Shown here one piece after another: positions 3,215-11,869 of a stretch of 11,869 bases of DNA. Location of the stretch: positions 1-11,869 of the forward strand of contig CAKVMU010000029.1 of assembly GCA_934773085.1 (NCBI GenBank), in the 5' to 3' direction. Positions within the stretch are counted from its first letter, which is position 1. Every line of letters begins with the position of its first letter. Origin of the DNA: an uncultured Candidatus Melainabacteria bacterium. Lineage in GTDB: Bacteria > Cyanobacteriota > Vampirovibrionia > Gastranaerophilales > Gastranaerophilaceae. A model generated the notes under the pieces. That model was not told the DNA's origin and made no database searches. It was given only the letters and a program-made list of their open reading frames with translations. The position numbers and the translations under genes are program-made.

Positions 3215-4625
3215 TTGTACAAACCCTGTTTCTTCCACCTGTTTTTGCATCATACAAAGCTTTGTCGGCTCTTTCAAAGAGTTCTTCCCCACTTTCTTCA
3301 CGGTTGTACTCCGCCAAGCCCATACTTATTGTGACATTGATATCTTTTTTGTCAACACTGTCTTGGTTAACAGAAATAATCGCATCTTCAACAGCCTTGC
3401 GCAATCTTTCGCCAACAATTTTGGCTTCATCCAGCTTTGTATAAGGAAGCAAAACTGCAAACTCTTCACCGCCGTACCTTGAAGGAATATCAGATTCACG
3501 AAGATGTTCCTTGATTATACCCGCAACACTTCTCAAGACTTCGTCTCCAGCAGCATGGCCATATGTATCATTAACTTTTTTAAAGAAGTCAATATCAATC
3601 ATCATCGCACATAATGGATTGTTCTGACGTTTTGCAATCGCAATTTCTTGTTTTTGACGAACCTCAAATTGACGTCTGTTATTCAAGTTTGTAAGTGCAT
3701 CCAATGTTGCATACTGCAAGATTTTAGAGTAATTGTTCGCTCTGTTTATCGTAGCCGCAGATTGCCTTGTAAGCTGTTCCAAATAATCAATATCACGTTT
3801 AGAAAGCTTTTCAATCATACTTCTTGCCACAATACATCCCGTAATTTCATCATCAGATACAAGCGGAAACGCACCAATTTTATCATCATTAGTCAATATG
3901 TGACCGTAATCCGAATCCAATTGTTTCAAAACATCAAATACTCTTTTGTCATTACAAGCTTTCGGCCATACAAGTTTGAATTCGTCATCCTGTTTCAAAA
4001 ATACATATATCAAGTGGTCAGATATAAATCTGTCAAGCATTTCGCCAATCAACGGAACAATATAGTTAAGTTCGTACTGAGTTTCTATGATTTTCGCAAT
4101 ATTTTTCATTGAATCATGAAACTCAACATTTATCTGTGACTGCTCATTGAGAACAATATTCTGCAACTTCAATGATACTTGCGCACCCAATATCTTCATA
4201 AGGAACAAGAATTCCATATCTACATAAGTTTCAGAATTAAACTCCAATTCCAAAATTCCGAAAACCATCCCATTCTTCACAATCGGAATAAACAAAGAAT
4301 CTATCTTAAAACTTATCTCGCTTATCGTTTGCGGAAGTCTGTATGCCTTACCGTTTATAACAAAATCATTTCCGTGAATTTCGTCATAAGCCTTGTATAT
4401 AGATTCCTTTACGTCATTTTGCAAAACCTCATCAATTACACACCAATTCTGCGCATAATTCCTCAGCGTGGAAGTATTCGGGTCAAAAACATATATATTT
4501 AGGCTGTTCACATCAATATATGATTTCACAACTACAGTAAGTTCCTGTACCAAATCGTAAGAATCAAATTCTTTTGTAAGAATATCAGACGTCTTTGCCA
4601 GAAAATGCAGATTCTTATTGTCCAT
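3207..4625 (-). CDS. Cytosolic GAF-GAF-GGDEF diguanylate cyclase
   Basis: Predicted to make c-di-GMP from two GTP. The 472-residue protein has no membrane segment. Residues about 15-165 and 180-300 look like two GAF-type sensor domains; the C-terminal GGDEF domain spans about 310-470. It carries the metal-binding DIDFFKKVND at 344-353, YGHAAGD just after, and the active-site loop GGEEF at 385-389 (3459-3473). An inhibitory-site RxxD (RESD, 376-379) lies exactly five residues before GGEEF, so product inhibition is expected. TLDALTNLNNRRQF marks the domain start. The ATG at 4625 is preferred over the in-frame ATG at 4652 because AAGAGGA lies 9 bases before it and it overlaps the stop of the TPR gene by 11 bases. 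It sits between a membrane TPR protein and tsaE, an unusual place for a signalling enzyme. The ligand of the GAF domains cannot be read from the sequence. Confidence 0.92.
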   Translation of the reverse strand: MDNKNLHFLAKTSDILTKEFDSYDLVQELTVVVKSYIDVNSLNIYVFDPNTSTLRNYAQNWCVIDEVLQNDVKESIYKAYDEIHGNDFVINGKAYRLPQTISEISFKIDSLFIPIVKNGMVFGILELEFNSETYVDMEFLFLMKILGAQVSLKLQNIVLNEQSQINVEFHDSMKNIAKIIETQYELNYIVPLIGEMLDRFISDHLIYVFLKQDDEFKLVWPKACNDKRVFDVLKQLDSDYGHILTNDDKIGAFPLVSDDEITGCIVARSMIEKLSKRDIDYLEQLTRQSAATINRANNYSKILQYATLDALTNLNNRRQFEVRQKQEIAIAKRQNNPLCAMMIDIDFFKKVNDTYGHAAGDEVLRSVAGIIKEHLRESDIPSRYGGEEFAVLLPYTKLDEAKIVGERLRKAVEDAIISVNQDSVDKKDINVTISMGLAEYNREESGEELFERADKALYDAKTGGRNRVCTNE

Positions 4626-5685
4626 CGTATTCGTCCTCTTTAAAATACTCAAAACCTGCGCAACTCTTGAAGTTTTTCAACATAGCTTTATCAAAATCAT
4701 CATCCGCCACAATTCTGCCGTTAATATATGTATAGCTTATACCAACAGAAGGTTCTCCGGAAAGCTTTTGAGTGTAATATTCGTCACTGGTAATAAATCT
4801 TCTTGTAACCTCATTTAAGAGATTGAAAATATATGCCGTTTGTAAAGAAGAAGAACTCGGGGATTCCGAAATCAACAACGCTGCCTTTTCGAGTTCCGCA
4901 ATAGATTCCTTATTGCGATTTAATCTTCGCAAAAGCACTGCCAGATTGTAGTGCCCCTCAAAATTCATAGGAGAAATCTCTATAGCCTTGCAATAATCCA
5001 ACCCGGCCTCTGTATATTCGCCACGCAAATGATGCGCCACAGCACGGTTGTAATAGACATCATAGCTTTTTTTCAAGAATTTGTTTGCTTTTGTATAAGC
5101 TTCAATAGCTTTACCTAAATACTCATAAGCCAAATATTGTTTTTCCACAGGCAAATACAAGGCTTTTTGTCTGTATGCAACACCTTTATTGAAATACGCC
5201 AATCCTCTGTTGGTTTTTACGCTTTTTACATTGCTATATACAAACGGAATCCACAACTTAAGGAGTTTTATATTAGTAACTGTATCAAACTGCTTAATCG
5301 CATCGTCAAAAAAGCCTAAATCTTCCGAATAAACAATCCCCAGATTCATCCTTGCCATAACAAATTTCGGGTTAGCAGCAATTGCGTGCTCGTAAGCATC
5401 CACAGCAGAATAATAATCTTCGTGCACAGCGTAAATGTTGCCTAAGTTAAACCAAGCTTCATAGTGCTGCGGATAAAGCTCCAACCCTGCTCTGTAGTAA
5501 TCCAGCGTTTTTCCCATATTATCGTGAGCATAAGCATTATCCCCTTTGTAAATGTAATACATACCTTTTGCATGATGATACTGCTCAATAAACCATCCAC
5601 GATAAAAATAACCTGCCGCAGCTAACAGCAGAATAAAAAACAAAAGTCCCGCTTTAGAAAAAAGCTTTCTTAAGAAACGTTTCAT
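4615..5685 (-). CDS. Membrane-anchored tetratricopeptide (TPR) protein
   Basis: A 356-residue protein with a basic N-terminus (residues 1-11) followed by one hydrophobic segment at about 12-28. There is no cleavage site that I recognise, so it is probably an anchor leaving the rest outside the cytoplasm. TPR-like helical pairs follow: about 42-74, 75-108 (AWFNLGNIYA...AIAANP), 109-140, 162-200, 208-240 (VYYNRAVAHHLRGEY...AIEISP) and 242-272. The last 80 residues (VGISYTYINGRIVADDD region) are not TPR and are unrecognised. TPR arrays bind protein partners; none is evident. It is the first gene of the operon and overlaps the diguanylate cyclase gene by 11 bases. An in-frame TAA at 5697-5695 forces the start to 5685 or later, and the N-terminal anchor argues for 5685. 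No Shine-Dalgarno precedes that ATG. Confidence 0.88.
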   Translation of the reverse strand: MKRFLRKLFSKAGLLFFILLLAAAGYFYRGWFIEQYHHAKGMYYIYKGDNAYAHDNMGKTLDYYRAGLELYPQHYEAWFNLGNIYAVHEDYYSAVDAYEHAIAANPKFVMARMNLGIVYSEDLGFFDDAIKQFDTVTNIKLLKLWIPFVYSNVKSVKTNRGLAYFNKGVAYRQKALYLPVEKQYLAYEYLGKAIEAYTKANKFLKKSYDVYYNRAVAHHLRGEYTEAGLDYCKAIEISPMNFEGHYNLAVLLRRLNRNKESIAELEKAALLISESPSSSSLQTAYIFNLLNEVTRRFITSDEYYTQKLSGEPSVGISYTYINGRIVADDDFDKAMLKNFKSCAGFEYFKEDEYDGQ

Positions 5686-5693
5686 ACCGTATA

Positions 5694-5722
5694 ATTATAA
5701 CCCAAATTTTCATTCTTGAATA
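5694..5722 (-). promoter_or_regulatory. Putative promoter of the TPR-to-proB operon
   Basis: A perfect TATAAT lies at 5699-5694 on the minus strand, with a weak -35 candidate TATTCA (3 of 6 consensus bases) at 5722-5717 and a 17-base spacer. The last base of the -10 is only 8 bases from the ATG, so transcription would begin at or within a base or two of the start codon. Confidence 0.45.
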
Positions 5723-5753
5723 GAAGAAATAGCAAAAAAATAAATTTACACGT

Positions 5754-5759
5754 TATAAA
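5754..5759 (+). promoter_or_regulatory. Possible -10 element for the 405-residue protein gene
   Basis: TATAAA sits 31 bases before the ATG at 5791, within the 105-base divergent spacer. No -35 hexamer of any quality is found at 16-18 bases upstream, so this is a weak call; a second TATAAA at 5776-5781 is too close to the start codon to be preferred. Confidence 0.2.
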
Positions 5760-5778
5760 ATCAACGTACATGATTTAT

Positions 5779-5784
5779 AAAGGA
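5779..5784 (+). promoter_or_regulatory. Ribosome binding site fixing the start at 5791
   Basis: AAAGGA is followed by 6 bases and then ATG. It decides the start of the 405-residue protein: the frame is open further upstream to a TTG at 5716, but that codon lacks a comparable site. Confidence 0.7.
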
Positions 5785-5790
5785 CTCAAT

Positions 5791-7008
5791 ATGCTTATCA
5801 ATCCAATTAACAACACAATTAATAATACAAATACATTCAAAGGCGGTCCAAATCCAACTATTGCAAAAAACCAAATGAAAATTCTTTTAACTCAGGATAT
5901 TTGGGCGCCAAAATTGAAAATTAAAAAGCCGGAGAGTCCGCTGGAAAAAGAAGTTTTGCTAGAAGTTTTGCAAAACAGAATGCATCTCGACAGATTTGCA
6001 AGACTAAAGAACGACCGATTTAAACTTATTTCTCAAATCCTCACTGCAAATAGCTGCGAAGATACAAATTCCCCTGAGTACAAAAATGTTTTGACAAATC
6101 TCTCAAAAAGAGGAAATCTTGCTTCAACACTCAACACTCTGGATAAAGATATTGAGATGGAAGAGAAGAAAAATCGACCGGCAATTGAATATTTTAAAGA
6201 AATTGATAAAACCATGGACGAGTATCTTGATAAACACCTTATCAAATATCCGGCAATGGAAAAATTTTGGTATAAAATTAGCAAAAACAATATTAACCAA
6301 GACGGAAAATATTCTACAAAAGAATTAATCAACATCGTTCAAAACAACACTGTGGATGAAATCGCAAATACTCCGAAAGCAACTCCTCAGCTTACCAAAA
6401 AACAACTTTTTGCAAAAGTTGAAAAACAATACGAACAAATTTTAAGAGAAACCGTGGACGTTTATGACAGAACTTTTCAACACGCAAATGAAGCAAGAGA
6501 AGCACGAAAAATTATCACCAAAACAAATGCAGAATATTTCAAGAAATTCCCAGGAATCGAAAAACAACTTCCAAAATTATATGAAATGGTTGAAAACAGA
6601 TTCATCCATAAGATGACAAGATTGCAAAATATGGAAATTTATCCAATTGGTGAAATTTGGGCAGGAATGCAAAATTTTGAACGCAAAATCAGACTCCTTA
6701 CAAAAAATATTCCTGTACTTAAGGAAAAATTGAAACAAAATCCTAATGATGCTGAAACAACAAAACTCTTAGAATCTCATGTCGTTGGGGTTTATAAAAT
6801 GAAAAAAACTTGGCTGGAAGGCTTGGAATGCAGTATTAAGTACGAAAAGATTAACCATGAAAGAGCAATCACGGAAGGATTTGGCGAAGAGTATGACTAC
6901 GTGACTGCTGCAAACAAAAACATTAACAAATACAAAAATGCTCACGAAATTTATGTAAACAACAAGGATGAACTTCCGGAAGATTTTTGGGCAAATATTG
7001 TCGGTTAA
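5791..7008 (+). CDS. Lysine-rich helical protein with an EF-hand-like loop, unknown function
   Basis: I do not recognise this 405-residue protein. It begins with an Asn-rich leader (MLINPINNT, then FKGG at 16-19), without a hydrophobic signal peptide or membrane segment. The rest is highly charged and mostly helical in appearance. Residues 167-178 (6289-6324) fit an EF-hand loop: Asn at positions 1 and 3, Asp at 5, Gly at 6, Tyr at 8, Ser at 9 and Glu at 12, followed by a hydrophobic helix ELINIVQ. A short related motif occurs twice 100 residues apart, KYPAMEK at 152-158 and KFPGIEK at 252-258, hinting at a diverged duplication. The start follows a good AAAGGA site. It is transcribed away from the TPR operon and is followed after 150 bases by the giant reading frame on the same strand. 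A role as a calcium-binding or secreted protein is possible but not shown. Confidence 0.85.
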   Translation: MLINPINNTINNTNTFKGGPNPTIAKNQMKILLTQDIWAPKLKIKKPESPLEKEVLLEVLQNRMHLDRFARLKNDRFKLISQILTANSCEDTNSPEYKNVLTNLSKRGNLASTLNTLDKDIEMEEKKNRPAIEYFKEIDKTMDEYLDKHLIKYPAMEKFWYKISKNNINQDGKYSTKELINIVQNNTVDEIANTPKATPQLTKKQLFAKVEKQYEQILRETVDVYDRTFQHANEAREARKIITKTNAEYFKKFPGIEKQLPKLYEMVENRFIHKMTRLQNMEIYPIGEIWAGMQNFERKIRLLTKNIPVLKEKLKQNPNDAETTKLLESHVVGVYKMKKTWLEGLECSIKYEKINHERAITEGFGEEYDYVTAANKNINKYKNAHEIYVNNKDELPEDFWANIVG

Positions 7009-7016
7009 AGAATGTA

Positions 7017-7045
7017 ACAATTTCATCGTAATTGTAATAATTTTT
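7017..7045 (+). terminator. Weak hairpin and T-run after the 405-residue protein gene
   Basis: ACAATT at 7017-7022 pairs with AATTGT at 7030-7035 around a 7-base loop, and TTTTT follows at 7041-7045. The stem is only 6 pairs and almost all A-T, and the T-run is 5 bases away, so this would be a poor intrinsic terminator. Confidence 0.25.
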
Positions 7046-7107
7046 ACATAATCATTAAAGTTTTTGTCCAAAAGTGCCGTTATACCTCATGTAGGTTTAT
7101 AAAATCC

Positions 7108-7133
7108 TTGTACTCATTTTGAATTCATATAAT
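7108..7133 (+). promoter_or_regulatory. Putative promoter of the giant reading frame
   Basis: A perfect TATAAT lies at 7128-7133, giving a start of transcription near 7140 and a leader of about 19 bases. The nearest -35 candidate, TTGTAC at 7108-7113, matches only at TTG and is 14 bases away, shorter than usual. An imperfect inverted repeat at 7081-7099 lies just upstream. Confidence 0.4.
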
Positions 7134-7146
7134 ATGAGTATAAGTC

Positions 7147-7152
7147 AGAAGG
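7147..7152 (+). promoter_or_regulatory. Ribosome binding site of the giant reading frame
   Basis: AGAAGG is followed by 6 bases and the ATG at 7159. An in-frame TAA at 7141-7143 rules out any earlier start, so this site and ATG define the N-terminus. Confidence 0.75.
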
Positions 7153-7158
7153 TTAAGA

Positions 7159-10100
7159 ATGACCGATTTAACAGTAAGACAAAAACAAGTATTTGATAAT
7201 TATAAGAAAACACACCCTAAAATGAGTGATGCGGAAATCCTTTCTGCTCTTGTAAATTTAGGACAAATTCAATTATCAGAAACACAAAAACTGTCATTAT
7301 TCAATAATCCTACAAATGATAATTCCGATATGGGATTAAAATTAGAACATTCTGCTAATCTTACAAATAATCAGCCAGAAATGGTTGAAAAAGCAAACGA
7401 TGCATTAATGGCAAAAATAGACCAACAACAAGCTATACTCAATAAAACAAAAAAAGAACAGGGATTTTTAGGCAAGTCTTGGGATTGGTTTAAAAACATA
7501 ACCGGAATCGGTGACAGTTCAAATAAAGCACAAAAGCAACTGGATAAAGAAAGAAATCTAGTTATACAAATTCAAAATGAGAACATCAACCATGAAGACT
7601 TTAAAGATGCCACAGGATTAGATTATAGTAAAGAAAATCTGCAAAAATTGAAAAATGGCGAACTAGAATTAAAATCAACCGAAAAAATAAAAGGCTATCA
7701 AGAAGGGCAAGAAATGGCAACTGATGTGATAGCAGATATGACAGCGGGTATGGTTGCATTTGGCATATATACAGCAGCCGTGGCAGCAACACCGTTTACA
7801 GGCGGTACTTCAATAGCCGTTGGCATTGCCGCAGCAACTGCAACTGGATCATTATTAAAAACCGGTCTAAAATATGCTGATGCCAAAAGTGGTGACAAAG
7901 AGTACAAAGGCAAAGAGTTTGGCAAAGATATACTTACAGGTGGTTTAAATGGTGTATTAGCACCTGTTACAGCCGGTTTAGGCGGTGCAATTGGAAAAAC
8001 TGTTGCTACTAAATTAGGAGTTCAAGCTGTTACACAAGTCGGAAAACAGGTTACAAAAGAAGTTGGGATGGAACTCGCCGAGCAGGGCGGGAAAGAAGTA
8101 CTTAAAGACGGATTTAAACAAACATTTAAAACATTATTATCAAAACCAACCGCATTAACATTTGAAGGGGGTAGTAAGACAGGAAGAATATTAGCTTGGG
8201 GGGCTGAAGCATCAACAGCCGGTGCTGCTTGGGGCGGTGTTGATGGTGGTGCAAGAACAACATACGACCAAGTTGAATCAGGAGAAAACATAGATGTTAG
8301 TCAAATTGCAATGTCAACGGTTGAAGGAACAGTTGGCGGTGCAGTGGCCGGACTTGGTTTTGGTGGTGCAATAAAAGGCGTAAGTAAATTATTTGGCAAA
8401 TTTAGAGGTAAAATTTTTGGCAAAGGCAAACCAAAGGCAGAAGCCAGCAAAGGCAATGCCACAGTTGAATATCAAACAGTTAACACAGAAGAAAAATTAA
8501 TGACAAATTCTTCACAAATTATAAAACCAGCTGCAGAAAATGTTCAACTCGCATTGAATACGGAATACAAAGCCATAATAGAAAAAGACCTACGATTAAG
8601 TGATGAAGTCAAAGCAATTTTATTGAAAGAAACAGACGCAAATTTAATGCAAAAACGAATTGAATTATGCGAAGCTTTAAAATGTGAATTTAGAATTGGT
8701 GACGAAAGATATAATTCACTAATAAAAGAGATGCCGATAGAAACTATCGAAGAAAAACTGAAATTATATGAACTTGTTAAAAAAGACCCTCAGTACGAAG
8801 AATATATTAAAGAAATATTCTTTGATAAAAATTGTAAAACATTAGAAGATTTAAAAACAATTAAAAAAACAGATATAGAGCTAAAATTAAAACAAGAGGA
8901 AAAAATAAAACAAGCAGAATTATTAGAACTTGAATGGCAAGCAAAGGTACAAGAAAGTTACAAAAAAATAGAACAGACTTTTGGAAAAACAAAAGAAGAA
9001 ATTCTAGATGAATGTGCTTCTTATAGTGTCACCAGTACCGAAAAAATGGTTAATATTATAAGCGAATGTATTGATAAAGCAAAAAATTTAGATAAAAATC
9101 TGGATTTTAAGAGGTTCTATGAACTGGCAATGTTACAAAATGAAAATGAGTATAAGATTAACTTTTTAGAAATAGAAACATTATTTAGCGAAAACCCAAA
9201 TATAACAAAATTTCTTAATGCTTTTAGACGCTCTGCACAAATGGTAGTGGATGAGCATGATGCAATTCTTGAGAACAAATTAAAACTATTTACAAAAATT
9301 ATTGAATGCAAAGAACCTCCAATATTGAAAAATGATAGAATATGGAACTCCGAATTATCACAAAATATTTTCAGTTATTTGGGACAAGATTGTACTGATT
9401 TAAGATTAAACTTATTAAAATTAGCCTGCAAAGATAACAAAAATACTAATTTTATACTTGATTGCATAGAAAAAGTTAATGCTAAAGAGATGTATAACGT
9501 CATAGATAAAATATTGAAAATAGAGCCTTTAATAAAAGATGAATCTAGCATGTCTCGCATATCCGAAATTTTTAATACAAAAGACTTTAACTGTGAAAAA
9601 GTAAATATATTTTTAGATTATGTACTACAAAACAAAGAATTCGCCAATTCAAAGATGTTATTGCAAAATGCATCTGCGATATTACACACAATTGCTTCTC
9701 AAAATGAATATTTACCTATTTTAGAAAAGATAATATCCAACAAAGATATTTATAGTAATGACGCAATTATAAATCACTTCAATGGTTTAATTTCAAGTGT
9801 ATATTACCAATTAGACCAAAAAGTTCTAGCAAAAAACAAGTTAACAATGTTTAATTATTTACTTGAAGAACCAAAACTTTTAAAAAACAAAGAATTACTG
9901 GATACCTATATGCATAGCATTGAATATGCCGGTGAAGAAACTGCTGAAGTAAATGCCAAACTGCATTATTTAAAACAACTTTTTAGTAATAAGTATGACG
10001 AATCTAAATATGCTGAAAAATTTTTTAATAGTTTTTCATCAATTGATTCAATGGAAAATGCTCAAAACTTTTTATCTGCAATTAAAATAATATCTACTGA

Positions 10101-11869
10101 CAAATTTTCAGAAGAACTAGCAGAAAAAATTATGATATTCTCTAATAATAAAAATGCATTAGAATTTGTTAAATTTGTTTCTGAAAATGAAAAATTAATG
10201 AATGATAAAGCTTTTATTGACAATTATTTTGGAGATATTATTGGCAATTTATCAATAAAAAGTGGTCTAAGCCTTGAAAATACAATAAAAATCATTAATA
10301 CGCCCGAATTATATACAAAAGAAAATCTAATGTTATGCAAAATTATTGGTAAAAAGGAATGCATTGCTCAAGATGAAACAGTACAAAATGCCATTCTAAG
10401 ATGGGTAGAAAATAAAAATATCAGTCGTGAATTAATAAAAGATTTGGCAAAAAATCTTGATGAAAACAATGTAAAATTTGTGGAAAAATATATAAATAAT
10501 CCCGATTTTGAACCAAAATCAGCACTTCAATCTATTTTAGAAACATTTAGCCAATTATATTTTAATCAGGATTTAACCTATAAAGAAATTACAGAAATTT
10601 TGTGCGAAAATAAAACATTCCCAAAAGACTTAATCTCTGAAATTGTACAATATTCTCATAAACTAAATAAAGAGTTTATTTTAAAACTTGTAAATGATAA
10701 CAACATTAGTAAAGAAAATATTCCAAGATTAGCATATTTAACACAAAATTCCGTAGCAGTAATAAACTCACTAGAAGATTTGAATAATAGAATTGCATTA
10801 ATAGAAAAACTCATTCATGATAAAGAACTTGGTTTCCCACAAAAAGGAATTGCCAGTTTTGTAGAAGCTCGTTTAATAGAAGATACAACAGATCCAAAAT
10901 TGTTAAATAAACAATATATGAACCTATTTAAAAAAATTGCAGAAAAAAATGGTACTGCAATGGATATGACATTAGCAAATGCATTTTTTGAGTTTTGCGA
11001 AAAATCGAATTACCAAGAATTATCAAGAACTCAAAAAAGAGAATTCTTGTATAAATTATTGGAACAGAAAAACAATATTGCTTCTGAAGAAAACACCGGA
11101 ATATTATCACTTATACCAAAAAATGAACAAGAATATGTTGATATTATTAAAACAATAACTAACGATTTAAACATGAACCTGAAACCTTTATCTTCAAGCG
11201 AACTTAATTTATTTACAAAAGAGTTAAATAGTTTAATATCACATAGTAGTAGCATAGAACCTGCGCAAACGAGGGCTATATGCCAAAACATAGCAAAATT
11301 TATGCCGGAAATTTTTGCAGAAAATAAAGCGACTATTTCAGATAAGTTAATATTAACTTTAGACAAAGTTATGAAAAATGAAACATTTGAAAAATTATCA
11401 GATAAAGACAAACAAATTCTTTTCCTATCTACTTTATTACAAACCGAAAGAAAAGGATTTACCGGAACAGATAAAGCATTTGATGCATACTTTATCGCAA
11501 AGAAACTTAATTTATCAGATAACGAAGCGAACCGAATATACACAATAGTAGAAAGTTCTGATTTGGTTCAACAATTTATGGCTACTTCTAAAACAGAAAC
11601 AGTTATAAGCGGTTTTAGACAGAATCAAACTATTGTTGGCTCAGAAAGAGAAGATTTATTTGACTTGGCCGCATTTAGACTACAAAACGGTAACGATTTT
11701 GAACTTGCAAGAATTTTATATTCTGCTAATGAACCCGAAGGTTTAACAAGACATTTTGACAAACTTTTACAACGCAGAATCAAAGAAATTAAAGCAACTA
11801 ATTTTATTATGCCTCAAACATCTAAAAGTGTTTATGAAGCAAAAGCCAAACCTATGACCATCTGGAGAG
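7159..11869 (+). CDS. Giant multidomain protein (at least 1570 residues), 3' end missing
   Basis: The frame is open from the ATG to the window edge with no stop, 1570 codons plus one base. I cannot name it. Visible layout: residues 1-185 are polar, with a Trp-containing patch GKSWDWFKNITGIGDSS near 113-129; no N-terminal signal peptide. Residues 186-414 are rich in Gly and Ala, with hydrophobic hairpin-like stretches at about 190-235, 255-285 and 350-405, including GGVDGGARTTYDQVESGE from residue 359. Residues about 415-435 are basic and glycine-rich. Residues about 535-620 are strongly charged and could form a coiled coil. From about 640 to 1400 the sequence is a run of Leu/Ile-patterned helices rich in Lys and Asn, like an alpha-solenoid. 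Residues 1415-1474 resemble an HD-phosphohydrolase helix bundle lacking the HD pair. An effector, toxin-like or surface role is conceivable from the hydrophobic module and size, but is inference. The missing C-terminus may hold the active domain. Confidence 0.9.
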   Translation, partial: MTDLTVRQKQVFDNYKKTHPKMSDAEILSALVNLGQIQLSETQKLSLFNNPTNDNSDMGLKLEHSANLTNNQPEMVEKANDALMAKIDQQQAILNKTKKEQGFLGKSWDWFKNITGIGDSSNKAQKQLDKERNLVIQIQNENINHEDFKDATGLDYSKENLQKLKNGELELKSTEKIKGYQEGQEMATDVIADMTAGMVAFGIYTAAVAATPFTGGTSIAVGIAAATATGSLLKTGLKYADAKSGDKEYKGKEFGKDILTGGLNGVLAPVTAGLGGAIGKTVATKLGVQAVTQVGKQVTKEVGMELAEQGGKEVLKDGFKQTFKTLLSKPTALTFEGGSKTGRILAWGAEASTAGAAWGGVDGGARTTYDQVESGENIDVSQIAMSTVEGTVGGAVAGLGFGGAIKGVSKLFGKFRGKIFGKGKPKAEASKGNATVEYQTVNTEEKLMTNSSQIIKPAAENVQLALNTEYKAIIEKDLRLSDEVKAILLKETDANLMQKRIELCEALKCEFRIGDERYNSLIKEMPIETIEEKLKLYELVKKDPQYEEYIKEIFFDKNCKTLEDLKTIKKTDIELKLKQEEKIKQAELLELEWQAKVQESYKKIEQTFGKTKEEILDECASYSVTSTEKMVNIISECIDKAKNLDKNLDFKRFYELAMLQNENEYKINFLEIETLFSENPNITKFLNAFRRSAQMVVDEHDAILENKLKLFTKIIECKEPPILKNDRIWNSELSQNIFSYLGQDCTDLRLNLLKLACKDNKNTNFILDCIEKVNAKEMYNVIDKILKIEPLIKDESSMSRISEIFNTKDFNCEKVNIFLDYVLQNKEFANSKMLLQNASAILHTIASQNEYLPILEKIISNKDIYSNDAIINHFNGLISSVYYQLDQKVLAKNKLTMFNYLLEEPKLLKNKELLDTYMHSIEYAGEETAEVNAKLHYLKQLFSNKYDESKYAEKFFNSFSSIDSMENAQNFLSAIKIISTDKFSEELAEKIMIFSNNKNALEFVKFVSENEKLMNDKAFIDNYFGDIIGNLSIKSGLSLENTIKIINTPELYTKENLMLCKIIGKKECIAQDETVQNAILRWVENKNISRELIKDLAKNLDENNVKFVEKYINNPDFEPKSALQSILETFSQLYFNQDLTYKEITEILCENKTFPKDLISEIVQYSHKLNKEFILKLVNDNNISKENIPRLAYLTQNSVAVINSLEDLNNRIALIEKLIHDKELGFPQKGIASFVEARLIEDTTDPKLLNKQYMNLFKKIAEKNGTAMDMTLANAFFEFCEKSNYQELSRTQKREFLYKLLEQKNNIASEENTGILSLIPKNEQEYVDIIKTITNDLNMNLKPLSSSELNLFTKELNSLISHSSSIEPAQTRAICQNIAKFMPEIFAENKATISDKLILTLDKVMKNETFEKLSDKDKQILFLSTLLQTERKGFTGTDKAFDAYFIAKKLNLSDNEANRIYTIVESSDLVQQFMATSKTETVISGFRQNQTIVGSEREDLFDLAAFRLQNGNDFELARILYSANEPEGLTRHFDKLLQRRIKEIKATNFIMPQTSKSVYEAKAKPMTIWR

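Follow-up and report, generated by a model that had tools for sequence, protein, structure and literature searches.

Likely giant modular effectors with exchangeable C-terminal tails in gut Gastranaerophilales

The window analyzed here, a stretch of 11,869 nucleotides from an uncultured Candidatus Melainabacteria bacterium, ends inside a giant gene whose product, judged from its sequence and from that of its relatives, is likely a giant modular effector of the Gastranaerophilales that has swappable tails and is aimed at other cells. The family is most likely a variant of the polymorphic-toxin principle that has a leader of no known type and comes so far from this order.

A giant uninterrupted reading frame of modular build

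In the list of open reading frames (ORFs), the plus-strand frame that opens with the ATG at position 7159 proceeds to the window edge through 1570 codons with 0 stops. Each of the five remaining frames there contains 38 to 182 stops, and for 1570 successive codons to lack a stop at the local base composition, log10 P is about −62. The nearest relative, P0001 (1956 aa), is encoded on a different contig, aligns to window residues 1 to 1570 with 73% identity, and runs 325 residues past the portion seen in the window. Since a protein from a separate contig aligns to all 1570 residues, the frame is not an assembly artifact, and the giant uninterrupted frame reported in the first-pass annotation is thus real. 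The single very large modular protein proposed there is upheld by P0001 as well as by the relatives that share its front end. The gene and the modules of its product are the following.

7159..11869, + strand: giant effector-like gene, 1570 codons in the window, 3′ end beyond it
7147..7152, + strand: probable ribosome-binding site AGAAGG, recognized by eye 5′ of the ATG
7159..7659, + strand: module 1, polar helical head, residues 1 to 167 (composition, predicted structure, profile matches)
7660..8193, + strand: module 2, conserved Gly/Ala-rich hydrophobic segment, residues 168 to 345 (composition, model, profile)
8194..8478, + strand: Gly/Ala-rich (36%) continuation, residues 346 to 440 (composition)
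8479..8958, + strand: charged Lys/Glu-rich stretch, probable coil, residues 441 to 600 (composition)
8959..11328, + strand: long stretch, putative helical solenoid, residues 601 to 1390 (by eye)
11329..11808, + strand: HD-fold domain, residues 1391 to 1550 (relatives, alignment)
11809..11869, + strand: first ~20 residues of probable module A (deduced from P0001)

By composition, this module order is roughly the one claimed at first, with the "solenoid" being a call made by eye alone; residues 601 to 1390 are common to P0001 and P0002 over the full length and to other relatives in part. The rest of the window holds ordinary genes, named by Pfam match as proB, thrC, tsaB, tsaE, a GGDEF gene, and a TPR gene on the minus strand, and the 5′ neighbor gene at about 5791 to 7008 was assigned to no family in searches of Pfam and PHROGs.

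Relatives confirmed that the segment first described as HD-like is an HD domain, but its catalytic residues are lost in the window protein, which has LLQTERK where many relatives show LLHDxGK. At the aligned position the HD doublet was seen by eye in 17 of 28 alignment rows, and the window protein has QT there. The HD domain of this protein is probably only structural. A Pfam HD match in P0004 sits elsewhere in that protein and was left out.

The front end defines a large family

Searches of the Pfam and NCBIfam models gave no fitting model for the window protein, and its best match in PHROGs was an unnamed family with an E value of 0.006. The initial verdict of no recognized family holds for these three collections, but the protein is no orphan, as it belongs to a large unnamed family; both its N-terminal unit and module A, the commonest C-terminal module among its relatives, are unnamed in Pfam.

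The family is defined by the first ~345 residues, which comprise the polar helical head and the Gly/Ala-rich hydrophobic segment. In the first round, 53 of 55 homologues matched the window protein within its first ~385 residues, a proportion that favors conserved parts because these homologues were picked by shared words. A second search with residues 80 to 345 yielded 202 proteins at E ≤ 1e-10, 120 of them among the matches listed. The N-domain was recognized by profile in 162 of the 181 proteins collected, a count biased by searches that favor the front end; the 19 proteins without the N-domain were dropped, and the 162 carriers form 108 groups at 90% identity. When genomes were scanned, the window protein alone gave no match, and the profile made from alignment A1 gave 31 loci.

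The first 60 residues reach a top 19-residue hydropathy of 0.72, and thus the protein has, by hydropathy, no signal-peptide-like start; 19-mers above 1.3 are confined to residues 190 to 237. Neither Pfam nor NCBIfam matched a known leader (signal peptide, PAAR, LXG/WXG, or TPS) in the window protein. An AlphaFold2 model of the N-domain, built from 22 sequences and covering the first 384 residues, was helical with a mean pLDDT of 60, better at residues 80 to 190 and poor beyond 269, and predicted long helices for module 2 with low to middling confidence. Compared with the PDB, this low-confidence model gave no structural match. Earlier it had been suggested that the protein may act on membranes or other cells; the hydrophobic module could indeed act on membranes, and an action on other cells is what we infer.

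In five ORFs of 2618 to 3331 aa, the match to the N-domain model is limited to about residues 5 to 167 (the head part), several ORFs of ~890 to 1110 aa match it mainly at about 165 to 367, and module 2 is also found behind a different head, "NPYLYTGT" (L105 and L107). Since the head and the hydrophobic halves occur apart, the head, the hydrophobic segment, and the tail look like separable modules. Two frames with a similar head are larger still (L103:117-10109, 3330 aa, and L104:576-9644, 3022 aa), and the former, whose match is of the head-only kind, has last 50 residues that resemble module A by eye.

Tails are diverse and exchanged

The last 300 residues of the 162 carriers formed 20 clusters (6 singletons; largest, n = 84), and these numbers are approximate, as single linkage may split or chain clusters or count cut-off ends as types. 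The ADPrib_exo_Tox model of Pfam was matched above its cutoff in the tails of L026, L106, and P0095; R, S-T, and E-x-E were invariant in 5 of 5 tails aligned (alignment A5), and L012, L013, and L022 were called ADP-ribosyltransferases by their place in that alignment, with the L013 tail giving no Pfam match. The ADP-ribosyltransferase tails match solved C3-type enzymes in the PDB. Weaker assignments were obtained for a zinc-peptidase type with an HExxH motif (ATLF in P0046, 26.5 bits versus a cutoff of 27.4), a calpain-like tail in P0027 (Peptidase_C2, 20.7 versus 23.8), and the L025 tail (a "polymorphic toxin system" DSP phosphatase, 26.3 versus 27 bits), and the remaining tail types received no label from searches. 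A deaminase-like reading of the P0029 tail (CAE/PCSTC), made by eye only, had no match in Pfam, and ADP-ribosyltransferase-like readings of P0017 and P0033, also made by eye, found no support in Pfam nor, for P0033, in the PDB; these candidates were set aside. The homologues with variable C termini anticipated in the first-pass annotation, some of them toxin-like, were thus found, as 20 clusters that include ADP-ribosyltransferase tails.

At two loci, L013 and L015, the gene lies between glmS and metK, and their DNA is 92% identical over 3.9 kb, from glmS through about codon 475, shares nothing in the tail, and resumes at 95.6% identity from the gene end to metK. L014 occupies the same pre-metK site, and its DNA diverges from that of L013 and L015 after 1.0 to 1.2 kb; the tails of L014 and L015 belong to one protein cluster. 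L010 and L022, which come from one genome bin (G005), share 99.3% identity over 1444 nt, beyond which their sequences show no relation. As judged from these comparisons, tails are demonstrably exchanged by recombination around a constant front end and chromosomal site.

The window stops before the tail of its own protein, and from the tails of P0001 and P0002 we expect that this protein probably ends in module A. This alpha/beta module carries His, Lys, Tyr, and Glu residues that are nearly invariant, and searches assigned no function to it. Among the 98 carriers matching it, module A is terminal in 83 and internal in 15 (P0021, P0027, P0029, L004, L027, and ten more), mostly around residues 491 to 803 and then followed by further tails. 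Since it can be internal, module A need not be the active part; it may be that part, or else a processing or release module. No clear relative of module A was found in the PDB, and hhalign revealed no relation to the ADP-ribosyltransferase tails. A Foldseek comparison of a model of the HD domain plus module A with the PDB and BFVD gave nothing at E ≤ 0.001, with VIA rows limited to the HD part plus one long helix, so that the fold of module A was barely probed. Two identities considered for it were not adopted, namely, an R-S-E ADP-ribosyltransferase, which profile comparison did not support, and an H-Y-E-type ADP-ribosyltransferase, suggested by the invariant H, Y, and E, whose order and spacing do not decide. 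At L011, two module-A genes (L011:3-2858 and 3694-9183) are arranged in tandem with an integrase gene in between.

Host and distribution of the family

By label, 21 of the 31 loci come from Candidatus Gastranaerophilales or Melainabacteria, 9 from a "bacterium," and one (L016) from Acinetobacter. In 20 family-bearing genomes, the top match to the window ThrC showed 74 to 91% identity, the closest being that of the roe-deer-gut genome of L004 and L011 (91%), and the genome labeled Acinetobacter (G007) encodes a ThrC 90% identical to that of the window. From these identities and the labels of related loci, we conclude that the host is a non-photosynthetic gut cyanobacterium of the order Candidatus Gastranaerophilales.

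Of 192 genomes from the order, 52 gave a match to the front end, in many cases to just one of its halves and in 15 with an E value below 1e-110; in a sample of 386 genomes from the phylum, the front end was likewise detected in 52. Such accessory spread, along with tail swapping and ADP-ribosyltransferase tails, is a misfit for housekeeping and renders it unlikely that the protein is an unexported cytoplasmic or envelope scaffold with regulatory roles, even though no known toxin is related to module A and intracellular proteins often contain HD domains and helical stretches.

The gene could also be cargo of a mobile element (integrase or TniB-type transposon) and be selected as a module against competitors or phages. 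A phage-type integrase gene adjoins L011 (L011:3008-3556), with similar ORFs, by their sequence starts, at L002 and L028, and a TniB/AAA gene adjoins L016 (L016:7604-9269), with a similar set at L003 (L003:4857-5276) and L006; these neighbors are of the TniB/HTH type. However, several loci sit between housekeeping genes, e.g., glmS and metK, Pfam identified no mobile gene in the window, and one scan of the IMG/VR contigs with alignment A1 returned no relative, so that a phage origin is not favored either. We therefore regard a mobile cargo as very improbable.

Downstream genes do not follow an immunity pattern

A small downstream immunity gene, as envisaged in the first-pass annotation, proved not to be the rule among 28 relatives with a 3′ end (a few of them without an intact 5′ part, and L007 with its front end split over two ORFs). 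The next downstream gene is metK in 3, there is no same-strand ORF within 400 bp in 11 (for L012 and L029, owing to a contig end), and a conserved partner (128 to 147 aa) follows in 8, ~10 to 44 bp downstream and behind three tail types; an opposite-strand gene is among the common next genes. Other downstream genes are present in 6 (L001, L004, L009, L017, L025, and L026), and all of these except L009 have a gene on the same strand, unrelated and encoding 120 to 309 aa, at most 205 bp downstream. The partner gene is located as follows.

L008:16120-16563: partner gene, with relatives in L005, L010, L019, L020, L021, L024, and L027

When the partner was compared with known chaperones and families (Pfam, NCBIfam, and profile comparison), the sole match was a weak one to Cmr5 (E value of 0.011). 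As this one partner stands behind three types of tail, we do not regard it as a general immunity gene. L106 (L106:1049-5007), an ADP-ribosyltransferase with another head, and an ADP-ribosylglycohydrolase gene are arranged tail to tail, ~5 bp apart; the product of the latter was recognized with an E value of 1.2e-68 and also matches the immunity protein Tri1, far under the model cutoff. This neighbor is plausibly an antidote, and the two genes may form a toxin-antidote pair.

The latter arrangement and the five loci with an unrelated small downstream gene, together with tail swapping and a tail repertoire typical of polymorphic toxins, would suit a classical antibacterial polymorphic toxin used against close kin, its immunity genes being short, far away, or unrecognized. 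Against this stand the counts over the 28 relatives, in which metK, the lack of any ORF within 400 bp, or one partner for three tails is met in 3, 11, and 8 cases, and we consider this explanation possible but doubtful. As searches revealed no known leader and the 28 relatives no regular immunity gene, we did not file the family as a classical polymorphic toxin. In the available text of PMC3482391, toxins that outnumber immunity genes are taken to indicate that the targets are hosts or other species; given the scarcity of immunity genes here, the target would more likely be a eukaryotic cell or another species than close kin.

A second flagellar-type export apparatus in family-bearing genomes

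Using one Pfam model each as marker for type IV, type VII, and contractile systems, we found VirB4 in 0, WXG100 in 0, and a sheath protein in 1 of the 20 family-bearing genomes. OEP outer-membrane proteins (efflux or type I export) were encoded in 20/20. The FlhA family was also present in all 20. By score, 10 of these genomes have the flagellar kind and 18 (all but G104 and G194) have a second kind of full length, and a lone C-terminal FlhA domain of ~460 to 510 aa occurred in every one of them. The C-terminal half of FlhA is the chaperone-docking part of the protein. FliP was detected in 20/20 as well; 11 genomes have one kind, and 19 (all but G004) have a second, shorter kind. Flagellin is encoded in 12 of the 20 genomes, and all 8 flagellin-less genomes retain the second-kind FlhA and FliP. 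An operon of the second kind, FliE-FliF-x-FliH-FlhA, was identified by Pfam in L079, and the same order was recognized in L077, L082, L083, L084, and L101 from gene order and sequence starts; FliM/N-FliO-FliP-FliQ-FliR was identified by Pfam in L099, with similar sets in L097, L098, L100, and L102. The loci in question are given below.

L081:9016-10491: stand-alone C-terminal FlhA half
L077:5008-10984: second flagellar-type export apparatus
L079:4794-10750: second flagellar-type export apparatus
L099:8415-12435: second flagellar-type export apparatus
L101:10011-15945: second flagellar-type export apparatus

Export of the giant protein probably does not proceed by Sec, and we tentatively put forward the second flagellar-type type III apparatus as the best candidate for delivery. 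FlhA was found at E ≤ 1e-100 in 190 of the 192 genomes of the order, 70 with the high-scoring kind and 120 with only the other; since the apparatus is near-universal and the effector front end is present in 52/192, their co-occurrence proves no link.

An N-terminal I-N/S-F-x-G motif recurs in the order (window 5791-7008, L008:16120, L023:1048, and L099:13712). Its broad pattern was found in 36 of 507 ORFs versus 18.9 ± 4.1 in shuffled sequences and 19 in a control stretch, and its narrow form was seen 8 times at N termini and 0 times in both control stretches. This motif could be a targeting signal.

Discussion

In the reading that we favor, that of an effector aimed at other cells, a conserved head and hydrophobic segment are reused before many different tails. 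The head would act as the export signal, the hydrophobic segment would help the protein to traverse or reside in a membrane, the middle would be a spacer or a binding platform, and the C-terminal part would act in the target cell.

Type III effectors and translocators are known for a non-Sec start, Gly/Ala-rich hydrophobic helices, and a small adjacent gene. The present family resembles such substrates in its start and its Gly/Ala helices, in the small downstream gene of 8/28 relatives, and in the export gate encoded in the genomes; unlike them, it has a partner without chaperone homology, and its link to an apparatus, here known from genes, is a proposal of ours. Conceivably, the second, filament-less and flagellum-derived type III apparatus and the lone FlhA_C docking protein inject giant effectors with a common front end and swappable enzymatic tails into gut protists, host cells, or rival bacteria, a scheme in which we place limited trust. 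As to the tails, some relatives share R, S-T, and E-x-E and the PDB and Pfam matches with C3-type ADP-ribosyltransferases, from which the module A expected in the window protein differs by profile comparison.

The exchange of C termini by recombination is described as a hallmark of polymorphic toxins in the accessible part of PMC3482391, and of the systems covered there, MafB-N of Neisseria and Microscilla-N resemble our family in having a lineage-restricted N-domain, recombining C termini, and common tail enzymes. In contrast to these two, the family has no signal-peptide-like start (by hydropathy) and no regular immunity gene, and its proteins are very long. The leader formed by its front end is absent from the secretion leaders given in Table 1 of that paper, as far as the table is available. 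Similar also are APD1 and APD2 of Amoebophilus asiaticus (same source, in part), which combine a constant N terminus with diverse C termini and hardly any immunity genes, and these effectors target a eukaryotic host. APD1 and APD2, however, own a signal peptide and a lipobox, whereas no hydrophobic stretch is present in the first 60 residues here.

In the available text of PMC4040986, PMC5877343, PMC4451040, and PMC3787301, the gut-dwelling Gastranaerophilales are portrayed chiefly as fermenters, and the word "toxin" appears there 0, 0, 1, and 0 times, respectively, the sole mention (PMC4451040) concerning environmental substances. Our search of the open literature, which excluded subscription papers and preprints, found no effector family of this order. 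Incomplete flagellar gene sets were read as reduction or loss by Di Rienzi 2013 and Soo 2014 (PMC3787301 and PMC4040986, in the text available). If our reading is true, giant effectors with toxin-like tails would let the Gastranaerophilales act on other cells, and the flagellar gene sets formerly read as lost might gain a function. As neither the N-terminal unit nor module A has a name in Pfam, this family may prove a source of new export and enzyme domains.
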